A DNA stretch of 64,000 nt, taken from Rhodospirillaceae bacterium (GTDB taxonomy: Bacteria > Pseudomonadota > Alphaproteobacteria > Rhodospirillales > UBA2165). The stretch spans positions 1 through 64,000 of the forward strand of contig JABIHH010000063.1 in NCBI GenBank assembly GCA_018649725.1, given 5' to 3'. Numbering within the stretch: the first letter of the stretch is position 1; each line of letters starts with the position of its first letter. Below are positions 53,714-56,323 of the stretch, one piece after another. Both the position numbers and the translations under genes were made by a program. The notes beneath the pieces are model-generated. The model worked only from the letters and a program-made list of their open reading frames with translations, was not told the DNA's origin and did not search any database.

Positions 53714-54982
53714 CTATCGCACTGCCGTCACGTCGATCTGAAAAAGAGCGCCGGGGCGCGTGATGGCAGGTAGCTGAACAAAAGTACTGACGGGTGGGTG
53801 AGTGACCAAATGAGGTGCATGCTTTTCATAATACTCAACCTCGACCTTGCGCATTGTTGGGTAGTCTTCGATATGGCGGAGCATCATCAGGGTCTTGACG
53901 ATATTATCCATTGAACTTCCGGCCTCGGTTAATGTCTCGCGAACCTGATCAAGGGCAGCGATGATCTGACCTTCAACCGCCTCCGCCGGATCTCCACCAT
54001 CACAGCCGGATAGAAACAGCAGATTGCCAGCCCCAACGCAGGCCGCTGCATTAGGCGTACCAGGGTAAAATTCAACTCGCCAATCTGGTGATGGAAGACC
54101 GCCAACGCCAATTGCCTCGACCTCTACCAAAAATTCCGGCCGCGGTAATTCATCGACGATAATAGCTGTGCTGGCAGGCATATTTCTGCCGATTTCCGGC
54201 ACGTATTTCTCATAAAACGCGCGCTCCACCTCGCGATAGCGCTGCAACTCATTGAGGTCTTTGAGAAATACATTTGTTTTGACCACGCTGGCGAGAGAGC
54301 CGCCGGTCTCTTCCATGCCGATTTTAATTTTTTCCAGGACAATCTCACTTTGCTCGATGAAGTCCGAGGTTTCTATCTTGACCGTGTCATGATCCAATGC
54401 CTGGCAGCCTGACACGATCACCAGATTTCCCACCATTTGAGTACGGGCAAACTTCGCGTGCTCCTTCGGCACATGGGGATAGGCGAGTTCCTTACCACCC
54501 CAATATTCGGGATAATATTTGACGTTCCAATCAGGCGCATTGCGGTCGATCGCAGCAATAACTTCATATTCAACAAGATACTCGGGCCGTGCCAGCTCCG
54601 GCACGACCATCAAAGTTGCCGCCGGTGGTTTGCCGATTAGGTGCGGCGCATGTTTTTCGTAATATTCGGTCTCGGATTTACGCACGGCCTGATAGTCATC
54701 CAGGCTGCGTACCAGGAAAAAAGTTTTGACGATGTTTTCCATGGAACTACCGGCATCTTCCAAGGCCTTCCTGGCTTTATCAAGTGCCACAGTCACCTGA
54801 TCGCCGGCATTGTCCGGGGCCGGTTGGCCGGAAAGCGTGTCCTGGCCGCCGCAGCCCGATACAAAAACGAGATTGCCGATGGCAATGCTTTGGGCGAATT
54901 TAGGATGTTCCTTTGGCACTTCCGGATAAGCCAGCCGTTTTCCTTCCCAGTAAGCCGGGTTATAGGTGATGTTCCAATCCAT
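53714..54982 (-). CDS. Triple-domain RidA-like protein
   Basis: 422-residue protein made of three tandem RidA (YjgF/UK114) domains, about 1-140, 150-285 and 290-422. Each has the PDWN-like start, GNLVFVSGC or similar, ALDKARKALEDAGSSMENIVKTFFLVRSLDDY-like core and a C-terminal strand. RidA proteins are normally 130-residue homotrimers, so this is a single-chain version. The catalytic Arg (PARS in E. coli RidA) is replaced in each repeat: PPAAT, MPAST and PPVST. Imine deaminase activity is therefore doubtful. GGAGGGGG precedes the ATG. Stands alone between convergent and intergenic regions. Confidence 0.9.
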   Translation of the reverse strand: MDWNITYNPAYWEGKRLAYPEVPKEHPKFAQSIAIGNLVFVSGCGGQDTLSGQPAPDNAGDQVTVALDKARKALEDAGSSMENIVKTFFLVRSLDDYQAVRKSETEYYEKHAPHLIGKPPAATLMVVPELARPEYLVEYEVIAAIDRNAPDWNVKYYPEYWGGKELAYPHVPKEHAKFARTQMVGNLVIVSGCQALDHDTVKIETSDFIEQSEIVLEKIKIGMEETGGSLASVVKTNVFLKDLNELQRYREVERAFYEKYVPEIGRNMPASTAIIVDELPRPEFLVEVEAIGVGGLPSPDWRVEFYPGTPNAAACVGAGNLLFLSGCDGGDPAEAVEGQIIAALDQVRETLTEAGSSMDNIVKTLMMLRHIEDYPTMRKVEVEYYEKHAPHLVTHPPVSTFVQLPAITRPGALFQIDVTAVR

Positions 54983-55201: not shown

Positions 55202-56323
55202 TTACGTAAACAGCGTCAACACGCCAGTATAGCTGTAGAGGCGGTTGTTGGAAATTTCGCCATTGGCGTAGAGGCCGATGATGGGGATGTCGCCGAGGAT
55301 GCTTTCGATGATTTGCATTTCGGCATTGGCTTCACCGAACATGTGCGGGCCGCGGGCGATGCAGGATATATAGATCCCACCTTTGATGTTGGTGCCTGAA
55401 CGTTTCTTTAATCCAGCAACCATTTCAGCCAAATCTTTTTGCGCCGCATTGGCATCGCGGCTGACGAACATCAAATGGTCACCGTGTTCAACGGGGGCTG
55501 CTATTGCAATCACGCCTTCTTCGGGGTCAACGCCAATTAGATTGCGCACCACATAATCGCCGGTGTCAGAGCCAACCACCGGCAGCGCCGCATGAATGAA
55601 GCCGCCGACTTTTTGTAGATCGCGGGCGAGTATCTCGCCAATATCTTCTTGAAAAACCTCAACGGCTTTTTTGCCGTCTAGGCCAATGACAAAATTCTCG
55701 GCACATTCGGTGATTTCGTGGACCTCGCCGATCGGTCGGCAGCCTTGGCTGAGCGCGGTCGCCACCGTTATCTCTGGATTAAAGACGATGCCCGAGACGC
55801 CGCCGCCGGTGACCTCACCCGCAATATGATGCTTAGGCGTATCACTGATGGTCAAACCGCCAATAAGATAGCCTTCCGATTCAATCGCAATGTCGTCAAT
55901 GATCTCGAGGACCTCTTCATTGGCGCAATCGGCATGCAAGAGGACTAAGGGCGGTCCGGTCATAAAATTATCGTTCACCGGATCGCTGTCATATTCCAGC
56001 GAATCTACCGCATCAATCGTCGGCAATATTTCGAACCCGTCTTCGGGCAGGGCGGCTGTCATAACTGCAATGGCCGGTACTTCGAAATATTCATGCGCGC
56101 CGGTGCTACCGAGCGCGCAAACGCCAAGCCCAGCACTGCCGACCCATTTATCGATCCCGGTCTCTTCTTTCAAAGCCTCCAGGATCGGAGCGAGGTAGGG
56201 CGCAATAACGTCCGTTACATAGACAAAGCCCAAATTGGCATTTGGATTATCGGCAAGCTCGTGCAGGCAATCAGTGAGGGTGGATTGCCAATCGACATTT
56301 TGGGCGTGCGCAGCTTGAAACAT
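55202..56323 (-). CDS. FIST-domain sensory protein
   Basis: 373 residues comprising FIST N and FIST C domains. The N-terminal domain includes ANLGFVYVTDVIAPYLAPILEAL, WVGSAGLGVCALGSTGAHEY and AIAVMTAAL. The C-terminal domain includes IALPVE-like sections GDYVVRNLIGVDPEEGVIAIAAPVEHGDHLMFVSRD and CIARGPHMFGEANAEMQIIESILGDIPIIGLYANGEISN. FIST proteins are proposed to bind small ligands, such as amino acids, and to signal through partner domains. No kinase or cyclase is fused or adjacent here. Confidence 0.9.
   Translation of the reverse strand: MFQAAHAQNVDWQSTLTDCLHELADNPNANLGFVYVTDVIAPYLAPILEALKEETGIDKWVGSAGLGVCALGSTGAHEYFEVPAIAVMTAALPEDGFEILPTIDAVDSLEYDSDPVNDNFMTGPPLVLLHADCANEEVLEIIDDIAIESEGYLIGGLTISDTPKHHIAGEVTGGGVSGIVFNPEITVATALSQGCRPIGEVHEITECAENFVIGLDGKKAVEVFQEDIGEILARDLQKVGGFIHAALPVVGSDTGDYVVRNLIGVDPEEGVIAIAAPVEHGDHLMFVSRDANAAQKDLAEMVAGLKKRSGTNIKGGIYISCIARGPHMFGEANAEMQIIESILGDIPIIGLYANGEISNNRLYSYTGVLTLFT

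Follow-up and report, generated by a model that had tools for sequence, protein, structure and literature searches.

RidA, TdcF and UK114 are the archetypal, homotrimeric Rid proteins. Crystallography of TdcF has shown the residues Tyr17, Gly31, Asn88, Arg105 and Glu120 lining the cleft between subunits (PMC1884159; also PMC5979572, PMC6435465) and has revealed a bidentate contact from Asn88 to Arg105 (PMC1884159). The RidA and RutC proteins assayed so far cannot do without Arg105 (PMC4433059, PMC8113886). Deaminase activity was undetected in Salmonella Rid7 and in RutC R104A, both of them lacking Arg105 (PMC4433059, PMC8113886). About 10% of the RidA-subfamily proteins carry Ser in place of this Arg, and Rid5 and Rid6 are variable at position 105 (PMC4433059). 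The Rid proteins that lack Arg105 are mostly of no known function and are usually taken as non-deaminases. Fused versions have also been described, namely 3x-RidA (E. faecalis EF_0115), in which three fused Rid domains are presumed to form covalent trimers and whose function is unassigned (Niehaus et al., 2015, PMC4433059).

We have analyzed a triple-Rid gene found in a stretch of 64,000 nucleotides from a Rhodospirillaceae bacterium (hereafter the window). Its product resembles 3x-RidA in having three tandem Rid domains in a single chain of ca. 422 amino acids. However, the three repeats of the E. faecalis protein (L039) carry at position 105 Lys, Arg and Arg and at position 88 Glu, Asn and Asp, with SAQ where the protein studied here has SGC. 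With RidA, TdcF and UK114 it shares the predicted fold, the cleft (between subunits in those homotrimers), the positions of Ser30 and Gly31 and, in two of the repeats, Glu120, but it differs from them in being covalently fused and in the replacement of Arg105 by Ala or Ser, Asn88 by Arg, Tyr17 by Phe and Gln32 by Cys. Arg105 and Asn88 are among the criteria of the RidA subfamily, and the triple-Rid protein has neither of them.

A single gene with three Rid repeats

The open reading frame has an ATG start and no internal stops, and its GC content (52%) is close to that of the window (51%). Three stretches of the protein matched the Rid model PF01042 of Pfam, with 188.4 bits over a cut-off of 27.3 (whole-protein E value 4.8e-56), and the NCBIfam model TIGR00004 (Rid family detoxifying hydrolase) was passed with 133.1 bits, the curated cut-off being 106.25. 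The first-pass annotation of this DNA had described three fused Rid repeats in one chain, and this is what we found. The gene and its repeats (the boundaries between repeats are approximate) are located as follows:

53714-54982, minus strand: triple-Rid gene, single ORF of 422 amino acids (translation; three PF01042 stretches)
54536-54982, minus strand: repeat D1, residues 1-149, with the N-terminal motif WxGKxLAYPxVPKExxKFA (alignment A1 and repeat alignment)
54089-54535, minus strand: repeat D2, residues 150-298, the most conserved repeat (alignments)
53717-54088, minus strand: repeat D3, residues 299-422, without the N-terminal pocket-loop motif (alignments)

That the gene is genuine and under selection, and does not come from contigs wrongly joined, is shown by 14 further genes with the same architecture at 54-85% identity to the window protein. 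A chance or assembly artefact was thus ruled out, the architecture being common to 15 genes. The conservation differs among the repeats, and when 12 family members were compared the invariant positions amounted to 37% in D2, 29% in D1 and 12% in D3.

Arginine is lost at position 105 and present at position 88

We have used E. coli RidA, its sequence verified against 1qu9, as the alignment reference for residue numbering. The position of Arg105 corresponds to these codons:

54617-54619, minus strand: Ala122 (D1), Ala or Ser in orthologues (alignments)
54170-54172, minus strand: Ser271 (D2), Ser or Thr in orthologues (alignments)
53786-53788, minus strand: Ser399 (D3), Ser or Cys in orthologues (alignments)

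No Arg was found at position 105 in any of the 45 repeats of the triple-Rid family, where a small residue appears throughout, and the Trp105 of Rid4 and Rid7 was missing as well. The alignment thus confirms the earlier claim that the catalytic Arg is missing from all three repeats. The replacements had been given as Ala, Ser and Val, of which the first two are correct and the third is Ser399 (in PVST), with Val398 lying one residue too early.

The picture changes at the position of Asn88, occupied by Arg in 44 of the 45 repeats and by Lys in the remaining one. When the protein was aligned directly with E. coli RidA, the helix had no gaps around this position. The codons involved are:

54680-54682, minus strand: Arg101 (D1), RidA Asn88 equivalent, Arg in 15/15 members (alignments)
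54233-54235, minus strand: Arg250 (D2), RidA Asn88 equivalent, Arg in 14/15 members and Lys in one (alignments)
53849-53851, minus strand: Arg378 (D3), RidA Asn88 equivalent, Arg in 15/15 members (alignments)

Because position 88 contacts Arg105 in TdcF and is Arg in nearly all these repeats, a guanidinium group is probably still present in the pocket. The first-pass annotation had named an alternative pocket Arg as the observation that would speak against its own reading, and by homology position 88 appears to provide one.

The rest of the pocket was conserved unequally, and the most informative codons are listed here:

54569-54571, minus strand: Glu138 (D1), RidA Glu120 equivalent, invariant (alignment A1)
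54122-54124, minus strand: Glu287 (D2), RidA Glu120 equivalent, invariant (alignment A1)
53738-53740, minus strand: Gln415 (D3), Gln replacing Glu120 in 10/12 aligned members (alignment)
54404-54406, minus strand: Cys193 (D2), in SGC where RidA has SGQ (alignment)

Glu120 is therefore retained in D1 and D2 and replaced by Gln in most D3 repeats. Among the 12 aligned members the Cys of SGC was invariant in D2 and present in 11/12 of D1 (one orthologue has Ser) and 10/12 of D3. The Phe at the Tyr17 position was invariant in D1 and D2, D3 lacks that loop motif, and several orthologues have lost Ser30/Gly31 from D3. These differences support the earlier suggestion that the three pockets would be non-identical. 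Judging from the aligned residues, each of the three repeats would retain the 88/105 face, but just two of them the 17/31/120 face, so that probably two of the clefts work and the third is degenerate.

Distribution and phylogeny of the family

Looking for the same triple fusion in other genomes, we have found a family of 15 members, the window gene included, spread over at least two phyla. They come from the window genome, from 12 close relatives out of 60 (in one case split between two contigs) and from three genomes of deltaproteobacterial lineages. In the class sample around a Desulfobacterota genome the gene was present in 2 of 46. The samples of 399 genomes of the phylum and 385 of the class contained no orthologue beyond the window's own, and a widespread family was thus ruled out. 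A viral or plasmid origin was discarded too, no relatives having been found on viral contigs; the only near-full-length plasmid matches were a distant triple of the E. faecalis type and two Rid genes lying side by side.

We have also built a tree with 109 Rid domains, 36 of them the repeats of 12 triple-Rid members; the search was a quick one, and support for the deeper branches was weak. All 36 repeats fell in one clade (SH-aLRT 99), within which D2 splits from D1 plus D3. The repeats of E. faecalis 3x-RidA, the only sequence of the EF_0115 type sampled, formed a separate clade near E. coli RidA (SH-aLRT 99), so that common descent of the two fusions finds no support with this quick method. 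Since the repeats of each triple protein form separate clades, the two fusions look independent in origin, and the triple-Rid family is an independent variant of an already known architecture.

Predicted structure

The whole chain was modelled with AlphaFold2 on a 12-sequence alignment, giving a pLDDT of 90 and a pTM of 0.90. Foldseek searches with the whole chain gave as top PDB matches the chorismatases 4bps, 5a3k and 5ag3, single chains of ca. 333 residues, over about 290-394 columns with TM values of 0.59-0.61 by target, E values of about 1e-12 and 15-17% identity. Chorismatases are themselves Rid-like pseudo-trimers. RidA chains matched the single repeats with TM values of about 0.8 by target. 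The model and these matches indicate that the protein is likely a single-chain Rid pseudo-trimer, in agreement with the covalent trimer originally suggested. The likeness to the chorismatases FkbO/Hyg5 consists in the single chain with Rid-like fold; the identity is low, and no chorismatase model was among the Pfam or NCBIfam matches of the triple-Rid protein.

In the viral structure library the sole significant matches were giant-virus YjgF proteins. One of them, the 387-amino acid YjgF-family protein A0A2U7UCQ5 of Pandoravirus neocaledonia, aligned with the triple-Rid model across 347 columns and may thus be a multi-domain Rid as well.

Gene neighbourhood

In the window the neighbours of the triple-Rid gene are unrelated to it (FIST, SLAC1, Sir2 and fructosamine kinase families). 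A gene with FIST_N and FIST_C domains (55202-56323, minus strand) lies directly upstream on the same strand, a pairing absent from the relatives. We have therefore dropped the idea that the window gene belongs to a conserved operon, the nearest neighbours being unrelated and not common to the relatives. In three relatives of the window's own genus a PNPOx-like gene adjoins the triple-Rid gene.

Outside the window we have found more suggestive surroundings. In three genomes belonging to two phyla (G020, G001 and G846) an NMT1-type ABC importer lies within about 4 kb of the triple-Rid gene, and in G020 the importer genes run straight into it on the same strand. The NMT1 binding proteins of these loci (L041, L045 and L125) are mutually orthologous, 52-57% identical. 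These three genomes have 3-6 NMT1 proteins each, and over nine genomes 0.2 such neighbours would be expected by chance within 10 kb (P about 0.001, computed post hoc). In most triple-Rid orthologues the importer does not adjoin. Among the 60 relatives a close copy of it elsewhere was detected only in G011, next to a Mo-hydroxylase scoring above the cut-off of the 4-hydroxybenzoyl-CoA reductase model; no triple-Rid gene was found in this 78%-complete genome.

Genes of aromatic compound degradation appear in other cases. A 4-hydroxybenzoate 3-monooxygenase, above the curated cut-off, is located downstream of the triple-Rid gene in two syntenic loci (G022 and G023), and in G010 the neighbours include a cupin resembling gentisate and 5-aminosalicylate dioxygenases, a Mo-hydroxylase and an amidase. 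In G001 they include an ammonium transporter with P-II, cupins and a FAD hydroxylase. Of 7 genomes, 3 had a FAD hydroxylase of the PF01494 family no more than about 10 kb away, 0.44 being expected; like those for the importer, these statistics were computed after looking. The context points to the catabolism of small molecules, often aromatic, and is not uniform. The literature on aminobenzoate pathways offered no decisive case of a Rid deaminase taking part.

Proposed function

The reading that we prefer, with a probability of roughly 0.45, is that of a covalent Rid pseudo-trimer with a re-tuned Arg88 site, an enzyme of catabolism whose substrate would be a small molecule with a carboxylate and probably an amino group. 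The three repeats would fold into the RidA barrel inside one chain, and each cleft between repeats would be formed by the 88/105 face of one and the Phe17/Gly31/Glu120 face of another. Arg88 would supply the positive charge for the substrate carboxylate, reaching into the space left by the small residue at position 105. Repeat 3 would keep its 88/105 face and lose the loop-Glu face, leaving two clefts working and one degenerate, and the protein would speed the hydrolysis (deamination), or a related step, of a catabolic intermediate of this kind. Because its key Arg seems to have moved to a neighbouring position of the pocket, the triple-Rid protein is probably a re-tuned rather than a dead enzyme. 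This interpretation of Arg88 has to be taken with caution, mainly because Rids without Arg105 have been reported inactive as deaminases (PMC4433059, PMC8113886). A more specific proposal seems doubtful to us, namely that these are independently arisen single-chain Rid enzymes in which the substrate-binding Arg has passed from position 105 to position 88 in the helix, with two working and one degenerate inter-repeat sites, and that they are specialized for an aromatic or heterocyclic compound that contains nitrogen and is imported into the cell.

Another possibility, unlikely in our opinion, is a Rid-fold enzyme with a chemistry other than imine deamination, a single-chain pseudo-trimer comparable to the chorismatases that would hydrolyse or isomerise an intermediate of an aromatic pathway, perhaps with participation of the SGC Cys. 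The whole-chain Foldseek matches would agree with it, as would the presence of SGC for SGQ in the three repeats, its Cys nearly always conserved in D1 and D2, and the aromatic catabolism genes found next to several orthologues. However, the sequence searches matched Rid families only, the match in fold may reflect the shared pseudo-trimeric fold alone, and the Cys of D1 is replaced by Ser in one orthologue.

The first-pass annotation had gone from the loss of Arg105 to the loss of deaminase activity, and hence to ligand binding or chaperone-like functions. A silent pseudo-trimer of this kind, be it a metabolite binder, a holdase chaperone or a regulator, fits the absence of Arg105 from all repeats and the lack of deaminase activity in the assayed Rids without it (PMC4433059, PMC8113886), and E. 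coli RidA treated with HOCl is reported to act as a chaperone (PMC4284807). Nevertheless, the presence of Arg at position 88 leaves that line of reasoning unsupported. Besides, position 88 and, in D1 and D2, positions 17, 31 and 120 are near-invariant, something that chaperoning driven by the surface does not need, and several orthologues adjoin transport or catabolic genes and not stress genes. Chaperone or binding-only roles received no positive support here and are not favoured; we consider this explanation rather unlikely. Finally, a standard imine/enamine deaminase like 3x-RidA, with a broad detoxifying role and little affected by the Arg change, is improbable in spite of the similar gross architecture and the TIGR00004 score. 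In the tree its repeats are grouped apart from both E. coli RidA and the EF_0115 type, the assayed RidA and RutC require Arg105 (PMC4433059, PMC8113886), and many other Rid genes of the window genome, some with Arg105, could serve that purpose.

If the more specific proposal of an Arg relocated to position 88 is correct, the rule by which Rid subfamilies are sorted (no Arg105, no deaminase) would fail in a large part of the Rids. A conserved family with Arg at the position that contacts residue 105 provides a simple test of inactive versus re-tuned proteins, and unlike in a homotrimer each site can be mutated separately, because the three are in one chain.

Arg88 in other Rid proteins

The window genome has 19 PF01042 matches, three of them in the triple-Rid gene and two in a double-Rid gene, and most of its single-domain Rids lack Arg105, with Ser, Met, Val or His in its place. 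This genome (G000) and its relatives have unusually many Rid domains, with 15-21 PF01042 matches each, most of them without Arg105. Neither the triple fusion nor the loss of the Arg is remarkable alone, since 3x-RidA and Ser variants have been published and many Rids of the window genome lack Arg105. Both features are thus less unusual than was initially thought (PMC4433059 for 3x-RidA).

We have also examined position 88 outside the triple-Rid genes, in 69 further Rid domains taken from seven genomes of the bacterial family to which the window belongs. Of these domains 49 lack Arg105, and 15 of them have Arg88; among the 20 that possess Arg105 none has Arg88 (Fisher p = 0.0035), and 19 have Asn88. 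The single Rids with Arg88 belong largely to one clade, a weakly supported sister of the triple-Rid family (SH-aLRT 80). The p value thus overstates the independence of the events, and the association may reflect a single evolutionary event. Some of these single-domain proteins (e.g., in L008, L094 and L103, with His, Asn or Ser at position 105) combine Arg88 with the absence of Arg105 as the triple-Rid protein does, but have one domain, SGQ or AGQ, Tyr17 kept and mostly His at position 105. Single Rids linked to DUF1028 were examined as possible functional relatives and gave no lead.

Other multiple arrangements were noticed. In G000 an ORF of 290 amino acids at C5:3280-3972 (L017, L019) has two fused Rid domains with PCRT and PPMT at position 105, and a further single Rid gene is located nearby at C5:6564-6938. 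The locus L110 (G010:C127:36000-39500) contains two adjacent ORFs with a series of ca. six degenerate Rid domains, most of whose footprint positions are occupied by unusual residues, and is possibly one long gene split by a frameshift. In a plasmid of Sphingomonas paeninsulae (L129, 3971-4786) two adjacent single Rid genes, which may code for a two-subunit Rid within an aromatic-degradation cluster, are found beside a glyoxalase gene and components of a Rieske oxygenase.
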